Source of the DNA: Sporichthya brevicatena
GTDB taxonomy: Bacteria; Actinomycetota; Actinomycetes; Sporichthyales; Sporichthyaceae
Reading direction: 5' to 3'
Assembly (NCBI RefSeq): GCF_039525035.1
Contig: NZ_BAAAHE010000010.1
Coordinates: forward strand, 52,400 to 116,399
DNA: 64,000 bases
The notes under the pieces were generated by a model. The model searched no databases, was not told the DNA's origin, and worked only from the letters and a program-made list of their open reading frames with translations. Made by a program: the position numbers and the translations under genes. How positions within the stretch are numbered: the stretch's first letter is position 1; each line of letters starts with the position of its first letter. Below are positions 21,937-45,793 of the stretch, piece after piece.

Positions 21937-22122
21937 ATGGCCAAGAAGTCTTTGATCGCGAAGGCGGCGCGCAAGCCGAAGTTCGCCGTGCGTGGCTACA
22001 CCCGCTGCCAGCGCTGCGGGCGCCCGCACTCCGTGTACCGCAAGTTCGGCCTCTGCCGCGTGTGCCTGCGCAACATGGCGCACCGCGGTGAGCTGCCCGG
22101 CGTCACCAAGAGCAGCTGGTAA
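21937..22122 (+). CDS. rpsN: 30S ribosomal protein S14 type Z
   Basis: A 61-residue zinc-binding S14. Cys24, Cys27, Cys40 and Cys43 form the two CxxC pairs that hold zinc. This is the short C+ paralogue normally encoded in the spc operon; a zinc-free copy, if present, would lie elsewhere under Zur control. GGAGA precedes the ATG. rpsH follows after 12 bp. Confidence 0.98.
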
Positions 22123-36234: not shown

Positions 36235-38097
36235 ATGTGCGGGATCGTGGGGTATGTCGGCGGCGAGTCCGTCGGTCGGGATGCGCTCGACGTGGTGCTC
36301 GCCGGGCTCAAGCGCCTGGAGTACCGGGGCTACGACTCGGCCGGCGTGGCCCTGGTGGCGGACGGTGAGCTGAGCGTCGCCCGCAAGGCGGGCAAGCTCG
36401 GCAATCTCGTCGCGCTGCTCGCGGAGGAGCCGCTGCCGGCGTCGCAGACGGCGATGGGACACACCCGCTGGGCGACCCACGGTGGCCCGACCGACCGCAA
36501 CGCCCACCCGCACCGGGACTGCACCGGCAAGGTCGCGGTGATCCACAACGGGATCATCGAGAACTTCGCCCAGCTCCGGGACGAGCTGGAGTCCGCGGGC
36601 TGCGAGCTGAGCTCGGACACCGACACCGAGACCGTCGCGCACCTGCTCTCGCAGGAGTTCGAGGGCGCGGGCCGGAACCTCGCCGAGGCGATGCGTCGCG
36701 TCTGCCAGCGGCTGGAGGGCGCGTTCACCCTCGTCGCCGTCCACGCGGACCTGCCGGACGTCGTCGTCGGTGCCCGCCGGAACTCCCCGCTCGTCGTCGG
36801 TCTGGGGGAGGGCGAGAACTTCCTCGCCTCGGACGTCGCCGCGTTCATCGCCTACACGCGGGAGGCGCTCGAGCTGGGCCAGGACCAGGTCGTCGAGCTG
36901 CGCCGCGAGGGCGTCACCGTCACCAACTTCGACGGGACCCCGGCCGCCGTGCGCCAGTTCCACGTCGACTGGGACGCCGCCGCCGCCGAGAAGGGCGGCT
37001 ACGACTACTTCATGCTCAAGGAGATCGCCGAGCAGCCGAAGGCGATCGCCGACACCCTGCTCGGCCGCGTCGGTCTCGACGGGCAGCTCGTCCTCGACGA
37101 GATGCGCCTGTCGGACGAGGAGCTCCGCGAGGTCGACAAGGTCGTCATCGTCTCCTGCGGCACGTCTTTCCACGCCGGCCTGATCGCCAAGTACGCGATC
37201 GAGCACTGGACCCGCATCCCGTGCGAGGTCGAGCTCGCGAGCGAGTTCCGCTACCGCGACCCGATCCTGTCCCGCTCGACGCTGGTCATCGCGATCTCGC
37301 AGTCCGGCGAGACCGCGGACACCCTGATGGCCGTCCGGCACGCGCGCGAGCAGCGCTCGCGGGTGCTCGCGATCTGCAACACCAACGGCTCGACGATCCC
37401 GCGCGAGTCCGACGCGGTCGTCTACACCCACGCCGGCCCGGAGATCGCGGTCGCGTCGACGAAGGCGTTCCTCGCGCAGATCGTCGCCTGCTACGTCGTC
37501 GGGCTGTACCTGGCGCAGGTCCGCGGCACGAAGTTCGGTGACGAGATCGCCACCGTCATGGACCAGATCAACGAGATGCCCGCCGCGGTCGAGAAGGTCC
37601 TCGAGACCATCGAGCCGGTGCGCGCGCTCGCCCGCACGCTCAAGGACAAGAAGTCGGTGCTGTTCCTCGGCCGCCACGTCGGGTACCCGGTGGCGCTCGA
37701 GGGTGCGCTCAAGCTCAAGGAGCTCGCGTACATGCACGCCGAGGGCTTCGCCGCCGGCGAGCTCAAGCACGGCCCGATCGCGCTGATCGAGGAGGGCGTG
37801 CCGGTCGTCGTCACCGTCCCGTCCCCGTCGGCGCGGCACCGCCTCCACGACAAGATCGTGTCCTCGATCCAGGAGGTCCGCGCCCGTGGCGCCCACACGA
37901 TCGTCATCGCCGAGGAGGGCGACGAGGCCGTCGTCCCGTACGCGAACACCCTGATCCGCATCCCGCAGGTCCCGACGCTGCTGCAGCCGCTGGTCTCCAC
38001 CGTCCCGCTGCAGGTCTTCGCCTGCGAGATGGCCACGGTCAAGGGCTACGACGTCGACCAGCCCCGCAACCTGGCCAAGTCCGTCACCGTCGAGTAG
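36235..38097 (+). CDS. glmS: glutamine--fructose-6-phosphate aminotransferase
   Basis: A 620-residue GlmS making glucosamine-6-phosphate. Cys2 (MCGIVGYVG) is the glutaminase nucleophile; HTRWATHGGPTDRNAHPH and the two SIS domains (SCGTSFHAGLIAKY; SQSGETADTLMAV; LGRHVGYPVALEGALKLKE) are complete, ending in KSVTVE. The ATG lacks a ribosome-binding site and lies seven bases from a -10-like hexamer, suggesting a leaderless mRNA. No glmS ribozyme is evident in the 154-bp upstream gap. A nested hairpin region follows. Confidence 0.98.
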   Translation: MCGIVGYVGGESVGRDALDVVLAGLKRLEYRGYDSAGVALVADGELSVARKAGKLGNLVALLAEEPLPASQTAMGHTRWATHGGPTDRNAHPHRDCTGKVAVIHNGIIENFAQLRDELESAGCELSSDTDTETVAHLLSQEFEGAGRNLAEAMRRVCQRLEGAFTLVAVHADLPDVVVGARRNSPLVVGLGEGENFLASDVAAFIAYTREALELGQDQVVELRREGVTVTNFDGTPAAVRQFHVDWDAAAAEKGGYDYFMLKEIAEQPKAIADTLLGRVGLDGQLVLDEMRLSDEELREVDKVVIVSCGTSFHAGLIAKYAIEHWTRIPCEVELASEFRYRDPILSRSTLVIAISQSGETADTLMAVRHAREQRSRVLAICNTNGSTIPRESDAVVYTHAGPEIAVASTKAFLAQIVACYVVGLYLAQVRGTKFGDEIATVMDQINEMPAAVEKVLETIEPVRALARTLKDKKSVLFLGRHVGYPVALEGALKLKELAYMHAEGFAAGELKHGPIALIEEGVPVVVTVPSPSARHRLHDKIVSSIQEVRARGAHTIVIAEEGDEAVVPYANTLIRIPQVPTLLQPLVSTVPLQVFACEMATVKGYDVDQPRNLAKSVTVE

Positions 38098-38107
38098 CGC
38101 CCGGCCA

Positions 38108-38134
38108 CCCCTGCGGGATGACGTCCCGCAGGGG
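38108..38134 (+). terminator. terminator hairpin after glmS
   Basis: CCCCTGCGGGA (38108-38118) pairs with TCCCGCAGGGG (38124-38134) around TGACG: an 11-bp perfect stem. Part of a larger nested repeat (38110-38191). Confidence 0.75.
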
Positions 38135-38191
38135 CGGGTGTCAGCCCTCCCACGGGCTGACAGTCGCGCACCAGGGACGTCATCCCGCAGG
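38110..38191. repeat. 18-bp inverted repeat enclosing a second hairpin
   Basis: The 18 bases at 38110-38127 are exactly reverse-complementary to 38174-38191. Between them lies TGTCAGCCC (38139-38147) / GGGCTGACA (38154-38162). The left arm can pair locally (38108-38134) or with the distant right arm, so two exclusive folds are possible. The right arm overlaps the expected -35 zone of acpS. Confidence 0.75.
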
Positions 38192-38201
38192 AGCACGCCA
38201 C

Positions 38202-38207
38202 TAGGGT
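38202..38207 (+). promoter_or_regulatory. putative leaderless -10 for acpS
   Basis: TAGGGT seven bases upstream of the GTG at 38215; no ribosome-binding site between. The -35 position overlaps the right arm of the inverted repeat. Confidence 0.45.
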
Positions 38208-38214
38208 TCGCGTT

Positions 38215-38658
38215 GTGATCGTGGGAGTCGGCATCGATGTCTGCGACATCGGCCGGTTCGCCACCGCGATGGCGCGGACACCGGGGCTCGGGCCCCGGTT
38301 GTTCACCCCGGCCGAGCTGACGCGGGGGACGGCCTCGCTCGCGGCCCGGTTCGCGGCGAAGGAGGCGATCGCGAAGGCCCTCGGCGCCCCGAGCGGGCTC
38401 CAGTGGCACGACGCGGAGATCCTGTCCGACCGCAGCGGCCGGCCGACGCTGACCGTCCGCGGGACCGTCGCTGAGCGGGCACGACTGCTCGGGGTCTCCG
38501 CCTGGCACATCTCGCTCTCCCACGACGCCGGGGTCGCCTCCGCGATGGTGGTCGCCGAGGGGTGGGGGACCCCGCCGATCGGTGCCGCCGCCTCGACCGG
38601 ACTCGGGCCGCCGTTCGCGCCGCCCTCGGACATCCCCGAGAACCCGACCCAGGAGTAG
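38215..38658 (+). CDS. acpS: holo-[acyl-carrier-protein] synthase
   Basis: A 147-residue AcpS that transfers phosphopantetheine from CoA to acyl carrier proteins. [15 protein letters not shown] contains the metal-binding Asp, [12 protein letters not shown] the conserved Glu/Lys, and [19 protein letters not shown] the C-terminal strand. About 20 residues of Gly/Pro-rich tail exceed the usual ~125. GTG start; nnr begins 3 bases after the stop, so the two are cotranscribed. Confidence 0.95.
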
Positions 38659-38660
38659 TC

Positions 38661-40145
38661 ATGCGGACCGCGCACTCCGTCGCCGACGTCCGAGCCGCCG
38701 AGGCGGCCCTGATCGCCGAGCTGCGCAGGACCGGGCCGGGCGAGGACGTCCTGATGAACCGGGCCGCGACCGGGCTCGCGACCGCGTGCGCGGGTCTGCT
38801 CGGCCGGGTCTACGCCGCCCGGGTCGTCCTGCTCGTCGGCAGCGGCGACAACGGCGGGGACGCGCTGTACGCCGGTGCCCAGCTGGCGCGCCGCGGCGCG
38901 CGGGTGGACGCGCTGCTGCTGAACCCGGACCGCGCTCACGCCCGGGGGCTCGCGGCGTTCCGCGGCGCGGGCGGGCGCGTGGCCGGCGACGCGGAGGTCC
39001 TCGACCGGGCCGACCTCGTCCTCGACGGGATCGTCGGCATCGGCGGCTCGGGCGGCCTGCGGCCCGACGCGGCCGAGCTGGTGCTCCGGGCCGAGCTCGG
39101 TGGCGGGCTGATCGTGGCCGTCGACCTCCCCAGCGGCGTGGACGCGGACACCGGCGAGGTCGTCGGCGCCGCGGTGCACGCCGACGTGACCGTCACGTTC
39201 GGGACCTGGAAGCCCGGCCTGCTGATCGACCCCGGCGCGAGTCACGCCGGGGCAGCGACGCTGGTGGACATCGGTCTCGGCGACCACCTGCCGGACCCGG
39301 CGGCGTGCGCGCTGCAGGACGCCGACGTCCTGGTGCCGTTCGGGTGGCTGCTGCCGACCGCCGACAAGTACCGCCGCGGTGTCGTCGGCGTCGTCGCGGG
39401 TTCGAAGACCTATCCCGGCGCCGCGGTGCTCGCCGTCGGCGGGGCCCTGCGCGCCGGCGCGGGCATGGTGCGGTTCGCCGGGCCGGGGCGGGTCGCGGAC
39501 GCCGTCCGCGCGGCCTGGCCGGAGGCGGTCGTGACCGACGGGCTGCCGAGCGAGGCCGGGCGGGTCCAGGCGTGGGTCGTCGGGCCGGGGCTGGGCACGG
39601 ACAAGAAGGCCCGGCGGCGCCTGGCCGAGGTCCTGGACAGCGACGTGCCCGTCCTCGTCGACGCGGACGGCCTCACGCTGCTCGCCGAGGCCGGCGGGTC
39701 GGAACGATCGGCCCCGACGCTGCTGACGCCCCACGCGGGGGAGCTCGGACGCCTGCTGCAGGTCGGACCGGCCGCGGTCGAGGCCGCGCGACTGACACAC
39801 GCACGGCGCGCAGCCGCCCGGTACGGGGCGACGGTGCTGCTCAAGGGCTCGACGACGGTGGTCGTCCCCCCGGACGGCCCGGTCCGCGTGAACCCGACCG
39901 GGACGCCGCGCCTGGCGACCGCCGGGAGCGGTGACGTGCTGGCCGGCCTGGCCGGAACCCTGCTCGCCGCGGGCCGGGAGCCGGTGGACGCGGCGGCGAC
40001 GGCCGCCTACCTGCACGGGCTGGCGGCCCGCCTCGCGGCGGAGCCGGACGGTGCCGAGGCGGACCTGGTGGCCCCGGGGCCGGTCACGGCAACGGACATC
40101 GTGGCGGCCCTGCCGGCCGCCTGGCGGCACGTGGCCGGGGCCTGA
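38661..40145 (+). CDS. nnr: bifunctional NAD(P)H-hydrate epimerase / ADP-dependent dehydratase
   Basis: A 494-residue repair enzyme that restores damaged NADH and NADPH hydrates. The N-terminal YjeF-N epimerase domain (about 1-210) shows LVGSGDNGGDALYAG and AVDLPSGVDADTG; the C-terminal ribokinase-like dehydratase domain (about 225-494) shows VVAGSKTYPGAAVLA, LTPHAGELGRLL and NPTGTPRLATAGSGDVLAG with the catalytic Asp. ATG 38661 follows AGGAG. The fused form is common in actinobacteria. Sits between acpS and alr as in relatives. Confidence 0.95.
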   Translation: MRTAHSVADVRAAEAALIAELRRTGPGEDVLMNRAATGLATACAGLLGRVYAARVVLLVGSGDNGGDALYAGAQLARRGARVDALLLNPDRAHARGLAAFRGAGGRVAGDAEVLDRADLVLDGIVGIGGSGGLRPDAAELVLRAELGGGLIVAVDLPSGVDADTGEVVGAAVHADVTVTFGTWKPGLLIDPGASHAGAATLVDIGLGDHLPDPAACALQDADVLVPFGWLLPTADKYRRGVVGVVAGSKTYPGAAVLAVGGALRAGAGMVRFAGPGRVADAVRAAWPEAVVTDGLPSEAGRVQAWVVGPGLGTDKKARRRLAEVLDSDVPVLVDADGLTLLAEAGGSERSAPTLLTPHAGELGRLLQVGPAAVEAARLTHARRAAARYGATVLLKGSTTVVVPPDGPVRVNPTGTPRLATAGSGDVLAGLAGTLLAAGREPVDAAATAAYLHGLAARLAAEPDGAEADLVAPGPVTATDIVAALPAAWRHVAGA

Positions 40146-44053: not shown

Positions 44054-44515
44054 GTGGCGGACCTGCGCCCGATCCGCTGGTGGGACGTGGAGACGCTCAC
44101 GGCGATCGAGGCCGACCTGTTCGGCGTGGACGCGTGGTCGGCGGAGACCTTCTGGGGCGAGCTCGCCGGGATCCCCGAGACCCGCTGGTACCGCGCCGCG
44201 GTGGAGGGGGAGGAGATCGTCGGCTACGTGGGGCTGGCGGCGATCGACGGCACCGGTGACGTCCAGACCGTTGCGGTGCGCCGGGACCGCCAGGGAGCCG
44301 GGTTGGGCGCTGTCCTGCTCGACGCTCTGCTGACGGAGGCTCAGAACCGCGGATGTTCCGAGGTCCTGCTCGAGGTGCGGGCCGACAACCCGGCCGCGAT
44401 CCGGCTCTACGAGAAGCGTGCGTTCGAGCGCATCGCCGAGCGGCCGCGTTACTACGCCGACGGTGTCGGGGCGCTGATCATGCGGCGGGCGCTGGATCCG
44501 GCGGCGGCGGGCTGA
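44054..44515 (+). CDS. rimI: ribosomal-protein-alanine N-acetyltransferase RimI-like
   Basis: A 153-residue GNAT-fold acetyltransferase. The acetyl-CoA loop [24 protein letters not shown] and the NPAAIRLYEKRAFERI segment are typical of RimI, which acetylates S18 in E. coli; other protein targets are possible in actinobacteria. GTG start 5 bp after tsaB. Its 3' end overlaps the convergent methyltransferase gene by 38 bp. Confidence 0.9.
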   Translation: MADLRPIRWWDVETLTAIEADLFGVDAWSAETFWGELAGIPETRWYRAAVEGEEIVGYVGLAAIDGTGDVQTVAVRRDRQGAGLGAVLLDALLTEAQNRGCSEVLLEVRADNPAAIRLYEKRAFERIAERPRYYADGVGALIMRRALDPAAAG

Positions 44516-45731
44516 CCGGCCGCACCAGCAGCGCGATCCGGCCCTTGCCGTGTCGGGTCACCACCACGGTCGCCGCGGCCGAACCGCGCGATCCCTTCAG
44601 CAGGTCGCGGCGCAGCTGTTCGGGCAGGACGTCCACCCCGCGCTTCTTCACGACCACGACACCCACCCCGCGCTCGCGCAGAACCGCCCGCAGCCGCGGC
44701 ACCGAGAACGGCAGGACGTCGGTGACCTCGTACGCCGTCGCGAACGGCGTGGGGACGAGAGCGTCCGCGGTGACGTAGGCGATCGTCGGATCCAGCAGCC
44801 GGCCGTCGACGGCGGCAGCGACGGCGCCGACCAGGTGGGCGCGGATCACCGCGCCGTCGGGTTCGTAGAGGAACCGGCCGGGGTCGCCGACCGGGGGCGG
44901 CTCGTCGGCGGAGTCGGGGCCGACCGCGCTCAGGGTGTGCCCGCCGGGCAGAAGCGTGGCGCGCCGCCGGGCGCCGTCGGCCGGACCGGCCACGAGCCCG
45001 GGGGAGTACAGCGCGGCCTCCTTCACCTCGCCGCGCAGGGACACCCACTCGATCGCGACCTCCGGCTCCGGCAGGTCGTGCGGGATGCCCGGGGCCACCT
45101 TCGCTACGGTCGCCGGCCGGCGCAGCAGCTCCCGCACGAACGACCACGGCGGCGCGTAGGCGTCCGGGTCGAACACCCGGCCCCGCGCCGCCCGCCGGGC
45201 CGGGTCCACGAACACCGCCGCGTCCCCGAGGTCGACCTCCCGGACGTCCCCCACCACGACCCCGGCACTGGAGATGTCATCTCCAGTGGGGGAGTCGAGG
45301 GTGAGGTTGGCCGCCGCCACCGCGGCGGTGAGGGGGTCGGCGTCGACGGCGGTGACGACCAGGCCCGCGGCGCGCAGGGCGAGCGAGTCCGTCCCGATCC
45401 CGCAGCACAGGTCGAACACCGTCGCCCCGGGGCCGAGCGCCGCGGCGACGCGGGCCGCCCGGTGCGCGGCGACGACCGGGTGGGTGGCCTGCTCCAGTCC
45501 GGCGGGGGTGAACCACATCCGCGCCGCGGCGGGCCCGAACTTGGCGACGGCACGCTCCCGCAGTCGGGCCTGGGTCAGGGCCGCCGCGACGAACTCGGCC
45601 GGGTGGTCGCGCCGCAGCCGCGTCCCGAGGCGCAGCGCGGCGGCGTCGTCAAGTGGGCCCGCGGCCGCGAGTTCGGCCAGCACGGCGGCTCCGGCCGGGG
45701 TTCGCAGGGCGCCGAACGCGGCGAGATCCAC
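44478..45731 (-). CDS. class I SAM-dependent methyltransferase, THUMP-like domain
   Basis: A 417-residue protein. The middle carries a Rossmann methyltransferase domain: VFDLCCGIGTDSLALRAAG (motif I), VDADPLT (motif II), VVVGDVREVDLGDAAVFVDPARR (motif IV region). The C-terminus (PFSVPRLRAVLRERGVGVVVVKKRGVDVLPEQLRRDL) matches the THUMP-like domain of this actinobacterial family, suggesting RNA as substrate; the modified position is unknown. GTG 45731 is chosen because AGGAGG lies seven bases upstream; an in-frame ATG at 45773 would add 14 residues. Divergent from groES, converging with rimI. Confidence 0.85.
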   Translation of the reverse strand: MDLAAFGALRTPAGAAVLAELAAAGPLDDAAALRLGTRLRRDHPAEFVAAALTQARLRERAVAKFGPAAARMWFTPAGLEQATHPVVAAHRAARVAAALGPGATVFDLCCGIGTDSLALRAAGLVVTAVDADPLTAAVAAANLTLDSPTGDDISSAGVVVGDVREVDLGDAAVFVDPARRAARGRVFDPDAYAPPWSFVRELLRRPATVAKVAPGIPHDLPEPEVAIEWVSLRGEVKEAALYSPGLVAGPADGARRRATLLPGGHTLSAVGPDSADEPPPVGDPGRFLYEPDGAVIRAHLVGAVAAAVDGRLLDPTIAYVTADALVPTPFATAYEVTDVLPFSVPRLRAVLRERGVGVVVVKKRGVDVLPEQLRRDLLKGSRGSAAATVVVTRHGKGRIALLVRPVSPPPPDPAPAA

Positions 45732-45766
45732 GGCGACGCCTCCTGCTGAATTTCTTGGCCCTGGCA

Positions 45767-45793
45767 TTGGCACTCAAGTTGACTGAGTGCTAA
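45767..45793. promoter_or_regulatory. CIRCE operator (HrcA binding site)
   Basis: TTGGCACTC (45767-45775), a 9-bp spacer, then GAGTGCTAA (45785-45793): one mismatch from the consensus inverted repeat. It covers the -35 of the groES promoter, so HrcA should block polymerase at normal temperature. Confidence 0.95.

Follow-up and report, generated by a model that had tools for sequence, protein, structure and literature searches.

In Pseudomonas, REPINs or REP doublets are described as two invariant ends in inverted orientation that enclose a less conserved, foldable spacer, with a fixed distance of 71 bp from start to start; they form tandem clusters and can be lost in a way that leaves a few bases of their ends (PMC3116915). 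The persistence of REPINs is attributed to copying by the RAYT transposase (PMC8049555). CGTC-tagged REPs carry the tag CGTC followed by a local stem of 8–9 bp with A-T first and second, a loop of 4–5 nt and a CCA tail (Di Nocera et al., 2013; PMC3733652). According to the same account, they form dimers in opposite orientation, have no dedicated transposase and lie behind genes in convergent or tandem arrangement, often less than 20 bp from ORF ends, with copies that overlap stop codons or reside within ORFs. It also mentions untagged REP-like sequences for M. tuberculosis and D. radiodurans, and Rickettsia palindromic elements (RPE), which are short palindromes read through within genes. RepRanger has found REPs in three Actinomycetota genomes (PMC12306157), and the REP13E12 group is named as repetitive (PMC10589994). 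REP-like repeats in Actinomycetota are not new in themselves. The name Sporichthya does not occur in the main text of PMC3733652 or PMC12306157, no report of repeats of the kind described here appeared for this genus by title or abstract start among the open-licence PMC papers listed, and no article there unites REP, actinobacteria and RAYT.

The inverted repeat that lies between glmS and acpS in the Sporichthya genome studied here, that of a soil bacterium, belongs to a dispersed repeat of this genus, which we term P1. By analogy, P1 resembles a REP doublet or REPIN in architecture and placement: its copies are many, short, palindromic and mostly extragenic, they have two near-invariant inverted ends at a fixed distance (59–61 from start to start), and like the Pseudomonas REPINs (PMC3116915) they form tandem clusters and are lost with a few end bases remaining. 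It differs from those REPINs in having an extra conserved inner palindrome, another sequence and another phylum, in that copies within one genome show no excess of compensatory changes, and in that no RAYT was found. The RAYT domain (Y1_Tnp, PF01797) had no match in the five genomes G000–G004 (three from Sporichthya and two from a sister genus); the control was positive in five of the 14 named genomes, among them E. coli. With the CGTC-tagged REPs (PMC3733652), P1 shares opposite-orientation dimers, no dedicated transposase found, a position behind genes that are convergent or in tandem, commonly close to ORF ends, overlap with stop codons, a copy within an ORF, and a CGTCAT in each arm in the source genome; however, it is without the local 8–9-bp stem after CGTC and without the CCA tail, and the partner of its CGTC, which lies within the arm, is in the other arm. 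No GTAG tag occurs among the conserved columns of the 34-unit alignment described below. Because PF01797 was not found and P1 falls outside the definitions of both GTAG-tagged and CGTC-tagged REPs, we do not class it as a REPIN. It can be likened, by description only, to the untagged REP-like sequences (PMC3733652, PMC12306157), which are short palindromes without GTAG or CGTC tag, some of them from the same phylum. Like the RPE (PMC3733652) it can be read through within a gene, but it is mainly extragenic, with one intragenic copy among 40 sites.

Nested inverted repeats between glmS and acpS

The window (the whole 64-kb stretch of DNA that was analysed) carries the following features in and around the glmS-acpS intergenic region.

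36235–38097, + strand: glmS, the upstream gene, with SIS and glutamine amidotransferase domains; its stop is 12 nt before P1
38110–38191, unstranded: one complete unit of the P1 element, a paired palindrome whose strands read nearly alike; 44 columns are invariant among 34 selected, aligned units
38110–38132: imperfect palindrome of 9+5+9, which contains the left arm box
38115–38127, + strand: left arm box GGGATGACGTCCC; found 98 times without mismatch in the genome, and exact in 108 of 114 arm slots
38128–38138, unstranded: left linker, 11 nt, variable sequence
38139–38162, unstranded: mid palindrome TGTCAGCCC-TCCCAC-GGGCTGACA; 55 exact copies of TGTCNGCCCN6GGGCNGACA, 0 of the reversed control
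38163–38173, unstranded: right linker, 11 nt, variable sequence
38174–38186, − strand: right arm box GGGACGTCATCCC, the left box in reverse complement, followed by GCAGG up to 38191
38202–38207, + strand: −10-like TAGGGT of acpS (putative role), kept in three Sporichthya genomes
38215–38658, + strand: acpS, the downstream gene, with a GTG start and an ACPS domain

The original prediction described a perfect 18-bp inverted repeat (38110–38127/38174–38191), a 9-bp hairpin within it (38139–38147/38154–38162, 6-nt loop) and a local stem formed by the left arm (38108–38118/38124–38134, 11 pairs, loop TGACG), and all three are present. A GGGA-N5-TCCC motif is likewise found in both the left and the right arm, and the right arm overlaps, as had been noted, the expected −35 zone of acpS, for which TAGGGT would serve as the −10-like box. 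Complementarity of the arms extends to 38 nt at 82%. The minimum free energy of the RNA from 38098 to 38214 is −80.1 kcal/mol, versus −49.9 kcal/mol for shuffled sequences (s.d. 3.5, n = 200; z −8.6), none of the 200 being equally stable, and a search of 100 shuffled windows for the 23-nt left arm, three mismatches at most being tolerated, gave no occurrence. The stems are therefore not a product of chance. Relative to other P1 copies, the 11-bp local stem is partly peculiar to this one, which has CCCC/GGGG flanks. As a separate observation, acpS may be leaderless, the distance from TAGGGT to the GTG at 38215 being 7 nt, with the box kept in three genomes (window 38202–38217).

P1 is a repeat of two inverted boxes and an inner palindrome

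The plan of P1 is GGGATGACGTCCC – 11/12 nt – TGTCRGCCC-N6-GGGCYGACA – 11/12 nt – GGGACGTCATCCC, that is, two inverted 13-bp boxes with an inner palindrome of 24 bp between them, the spacing being nearly fixed. A search of the source genome with the 117-nt glmS-acpS gap gave 104 matches, and among the 40 of 79 candidates that were scored the gap itself was best (212 bits), the rest having 72–91% identity. We count about 43 P1 loci spread over the contigs of this genome, namely 42 clusters and one locus on contig C8. Strict pairs of GGGATGACGTCCC...GGGACGTCATCCC number 37 in the source genome (G000) and 12 in a second Sporichthya genome (G001), with no match to the reversed pattern; the other 38 of 40 genomes searched have none, the third Sporichthya genome (G002) included. 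The 13-mer arm occurs without mismatch 98 times in the source genome and the mid 55 times, against 0 for the reversed patterns.

Across an alignment of 34 units that were hand-picked for completeness, neither 13-mer varies (34/34) and 44 columns are invariant; the inner palindrome is nearly invariant as well. A less selected count, in which arms shared inside arrays are counted from both sides and the loci L104 and L107 are left outside, comprises the 114 arm slots beside 57 mids: 108 are exact, three have one change (two of these being one shared arm) and three are without an arm. The linkers (n = 111, same scope, lengths of 8–15 permitted) measure 11 nt in 33 cases and 12 nt in 78. Two-unit arrays with a period of 60/61 bp make up 15 of the 42 clusters. 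The slots without an arm hold a half-site resembling GGGCTGACA in 3 of 3 cases in the source genome and 4 of 6 in G002, and arm and mid may thus be variants of one box. The suggestion that the arms could be sites recognized by a protein fits these data, in that the 13-mers, as candidate sites, are nearly invariant in both sequence and spacing.

One copy outside the clusters (L104, C8:136456) is identical over 77 nt to the copy at C35:71244 and runs into Ns. We considered recent transposition as the source of this identity and dropped it, because the C8 copy abuts the Ns and could reflect an assembly effect.

P1 lies behind genes and avoids divergent gaps

With genes predicted by a simple codon-usage caller trained on the window, 40 P1 sites were placed: 21 lie between tandem genes, 18 between convergent genes and 1 between divergent genes. 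Here L013 and L030 are each counted twice (two clusters apiece), L032 is intragenic but tallied as tandem, and L104–L107 are outside the tally. The background, taken from 464 kb (the window and 400 kb of G001), consists of 250 tandem, 40 convergent and 49 divergent gaps, and the probability of at most 1 divergent site in 40 is about 5e-5 by gap length. A gene 3′ end is found within 25 nt at 33 of the 40 sites, and at six sites (L020, L024, L027, L031, L039 and L041) the predicted stop is a TGA inside the arm. The single intragenic copy (L032) is read through inside a biotin-carboxylase ORF with a biotinyl domain; the biotin carboxylase of G001 is 21 residues shorter at the P1 position, where its DNA retains the stub ATCCCGCAG. 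At L030, as a single case, an AbiEi_4 gene (P0001) stands between two P1 arrays (766–2150), and this block is missing from G001, which has other repeats there.

Sequence appears more constrained than pairing within the genome

Among the 34 units of the source genome, covariation of the long hairpin does not exceed that of shuffles (4 pairs changed on both sides versus a shuffled mean of 6.7), and covariation of the local stems, as RNA pair counts over the same units, is also not above shuffles; invariant pairs are uninformative either way on pairing. In G002, six units have two exact arms; the left and right boxes are complementary in four of these, whereas L068 and L109 have the same box twice. 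The G002 mid at glmS-acpS is changed on both sides. The data from within the genome favour sequence; between species, pairing is mostly kept and may contribute.

These results bear on the possibility that P1 copies are bidirectional terminators or 3′-end mRNA stabilizers, GC-rich hairpins selected to stop or protect transcripts. We regard this explanation as possible, though less likely than not. The closeness to gene 3′ ends, the 18 convergent sites versus 1 divergent, the very stable fold and the replacement of P1 by another hairpin in G001 at L022 and L043 all speak for it. However, a terminator requires a stem and not a fixed sequence, whereas the boxes in the source genome are nearly invariant and show no covariation. 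No T-run terminator was found within 37500–39000, so that the glmS-acpS copy is without a T-run; the proposal that its local stem acts as a terminator is for this reason, and for want of covariation above shuffles, not sustained. Moreover, at the window site, L011, L016, L024, L042 and L044 the gap in G001 has only 4–24 unaligned nt, into which a comparable hairpin would not fit.

Fate of P1 in related genomes

Three genomes of the genus were available, the source genome, G001 and the more distant G002, of which G000 and G002 are drafts. At glmS-acpS, G001 has a remaining stub of 10 nt, ATCCCGCAGG, and in G002 the left arm is intact, the mid changed and the right arm broken; in G003, G005 and G006 the gap is short and the element absent. 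The sequence CACTAGGGT upstream of acpS is retained in all three Sporichthya. Conservation of the long-range pairing in relatives, which had been proposed as a check on the original prediction, thus fails at this site, and a role specific to acpS is not borne out, the element being lost in G001 while the acpS −10-like box and start are kept. The glmS-acpS copy would then be a dispensable 3′-end hairpin, possibly an insulator, and not a regulator specific to glmS or acpS.

Mapping of the flanks of the 42 clusters in G001 (1.2 Mb) placed both flanks for 23, one for 3 and none for 16. The element is present at 10 of the 23 sites and absent at 13, and 10/23 is not a retention rate, as the sample is non-random and includes all 13 places where the element was found in G001 (150 candidates scored). 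Ten of these 13 places match a cluster of the source genome; those at 948, 2112 and 2845 kb match none of the 42. Clear stubs, as read, remain at six of the 13 element-less sites (the window site, L032, L035, L037, L044 and L105), the stub at L105 being a whole single arm, and there is no clear stub at L016, L024, L033 and L042. L011 is absent from G001 and present in G002, and was therefore lost in G001. At L022, G001 has a palindrome doublet of the P2 type (see below) instead of P1; at L043 it has, at about C1:4337610–4337660, the hairpin TCCGGCCAACTGTGG...CCACAGTTGGCCGGA, one arm of which recurs once in 1.2 Mb. The number of units differs between species at L018, L029, L031 and L046. In G002, 6 of 13 distinct element sites tested coincide with element sites of the source genome; this set has 14 entries, L083 and L110 being one place, and leaves out further matches (C76, C197 and C380 among them).

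Neither a clean pre-insertion site nor a target duplication was found, the empty sites of G001 being largely losses with stubs. Where half an arm is left behind, the loss is reminiscent, by analogy, of the excision footprints of REPINs (PMC3116915), and palindrome slippage would give the same result. The relaxed pattern GGGANNNNNTCCCN{9,14}TGTCNNCCCNNNNNNGGGNNGACA matched three genome contigs, all from one Sporichthya MAG, in a search from which the source genome and very near genomes were possibly excluded; it matched no viral contig, and blastn of the element against plasmids and phages gave no match. P1 has thus far been found in Sporichthya only; these patterns demand near-exact boxes and could overlook more diverged relatives elsewhere.

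Boxes are conserved at shared sites and differ as a set between species

Of the ten sites shared by the source genome and G001, six have equal numbers of units and could be aligned ungapped, the remaining four having unequal numbers; these six orthologous pairs were compared position by position. The boxes differ at 4 of 264 positions (1.5%) and the spacers at 25 of 174 (14%; Fisher p = 1.3e-7), a comparison that favours conserved boxes in so far as both copies had to be recognizable. By part, the differences are 2/156 in the arms, 2/108 in the mids, 9/36 in N6 and 16/138 in the linkers. The G001 arm at the L038 site has a single change.

In G002, 19 of the 26 arm slots of 13 units are exactly GGGACGWCGTCCC, the exact arms reading GGGACGACGTCCC or its complement, and none is of the source-genome type; one further slot has a single change and six are without such an arm, one of these being two changes away. 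The difference also holds at the six sites orthologous between the source genome and G002. Judged from these sequences, therefore, the box differs as a set between the two genomes while the sites have stayed in place. One arm in the source genome, at L021, carries the G002-type box.

Such a difference of box would be expected if P1 copies were bound by a chromosomal or regulatory protein of the host, of nucleoid or segregation type, and retained for a cellular function without any mobile-element logic, and if the specificity of that protein had changed; the near-fixed spacing of the boxes would suit this as well. We nevertheless find this explanation rather unlikely. Promoter regions are avoided (1 of 40 sites divergent), one copy lies within a coding ORF, P1 is missing at 13 of the 23 mapped G001 sites and was found at 13 places in total there, and unit number varies between species at four sites. 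It is very unlikely that P1 is a relic, with dead copies of a mobile element drifting neutrally and boxes alike through recent spread. Losses in G001 are many, several G002 right arms are broken and no RAYT was found, all of which speak for a relic, but boxes and spacers have changed very unequally at the same orthologous sites, and the copies of the source genome and G002 have different boxes as a set where sites are shared. Finally, a bistable RNA switch or attenuator controlling acpS or glmS is almost certainly the wrong reading: two mutually exclusive folds do exist, as predicted, and the left stem could form first during transcription, but the long hairpin (−71.8 kcal/mol) is favoured by 17 kcal/mol over the most stable fold obtained when the local left stem is forced to form (−54.6 kcal/mol), Rfam gave no match at gathering score in the 64-kb window, the same element occurs at about 43 loci next to other genes, and at glmS-acpS G001 has lost it and G002 has a half-broken copy, with the acpS −10-like box retained. 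Bistability was rejected on the fold energies, the loss in a close relative and the lack of covariation.

Sister palindromes and DUF222 genes

Two further palindromes, P2 and P3, were derived from the commonest 14-mers of G001. P2, GAGATGACATCTC, has 170 exact copies in the source genome, 77 in G001, 1 in G002 and 0 in G003 and G004, with a reversed control of 0. A perfect 23-bp palindrome in the window at 45266–45288, CACTGGAGATGTCATCTCCAGTG, is a P2 copy that is read through within an ORF with a THUMP-like domain (44478–45773, − strand). P3 is, by eye, a 58-bp palindrome with the core AAGGGTGACACCCCTT-ACTGCGCAGT-AAGGGGTGTCACCCTT, and its 82 box hits per 1.2 Mb fall into 44 clusters. Over the same 1.2 Mb of G001, clusters of at least two boxes lie in convergent/tandem gaps 22/8 times for P3, 3/7 for P1 and 3/3 for P2, and in divergent gaps 0 times; one P2 and one P3 cluster are inside predicted genes.

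A possible link between such repeats and DUF222 proteins is suggested by mycobacterial REP13E12. DUF222 (PF02720) has 16 matches in the source genome and 31 in G001. P3 lies upstream in 6 of 15 DUF222 loci of the source genome (L178, L180, L184, L186, L188 and L190), five of these also having P2, and a single P2 accompanies 2 of 15 loci of G001 (one upstream, one downstream); 22 of the 30 loci are without P2 or P3, and P1 is beside none of the 30. Among seven G001 members in the 1.2-Mb stretches, two of which were already among the 30 loci, P3 is upstream in five (positions 22036, 3587630, 5330741, 5379774 and 5453010), four of them with P2. These cases are not independent, being paralogues with similar upstream DNA. 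In comparison with the REP13E12/DUF222-HNH repeats of mycobacteria (PMC10589994), P2 and P3 of Sporichthya stand upstream of some members of the multi-copy DUF222 genes, whereas P1 adjoins none of the 30 DUF222 loci.

The boxes of P1 (GGGATGACGTCCC), P2 (GAGATGACATCTC) and P3 (GGGGTGACACCCC) and the mid half-site (GGGCTGACA) can be read as forms of one box centred on TGAC. It is conceivable, though distinctly improbable, that they form a RAYT-independent REPIN-like system in which multi-copy DUF222/HNH-type proteins both disperse the TGAC-centred paired palindromes and rewrite them where they stand. If so, boxes would change together throughout a genome as the specificity of the enzyme shifts. 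The position of P2 and P3 upstream of DUF222 genes is a lead only on these unexplained proteins.

Discussion

We consider it likely that P1 is a dispersed, non-coding element of REPIN-like type, and that a putative sequence-specific factor preserves its boxes. Its copies would have been spread in an ancestor of Sporichthya by an enzyme acting in trans, and this factor would still read them. Its recognition of the boxes, to a greater degree than base pairing, may keep the boxes alike and may account for the set-wise difference of box between species, with perhaps a minor role for the element at 3′ ends. Among the three Sporichthya genomes no mobilizer was linked to P1, PF01797 not having been found, and in 1.2 Mb of G001 no gene sandwiched by palindrome clusters (at least two boxes within 250 nt) was found as a candidate mobilizer.

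P1 would represent a population of REPIN-like repeats in a genus of actinobacteria where RAYT was not found, with boxes that are near-perfect at fixed sites and set-wise different between species. The maintenance of REPIN-like repeats thereby becomes a testable question in culturable bacteria.
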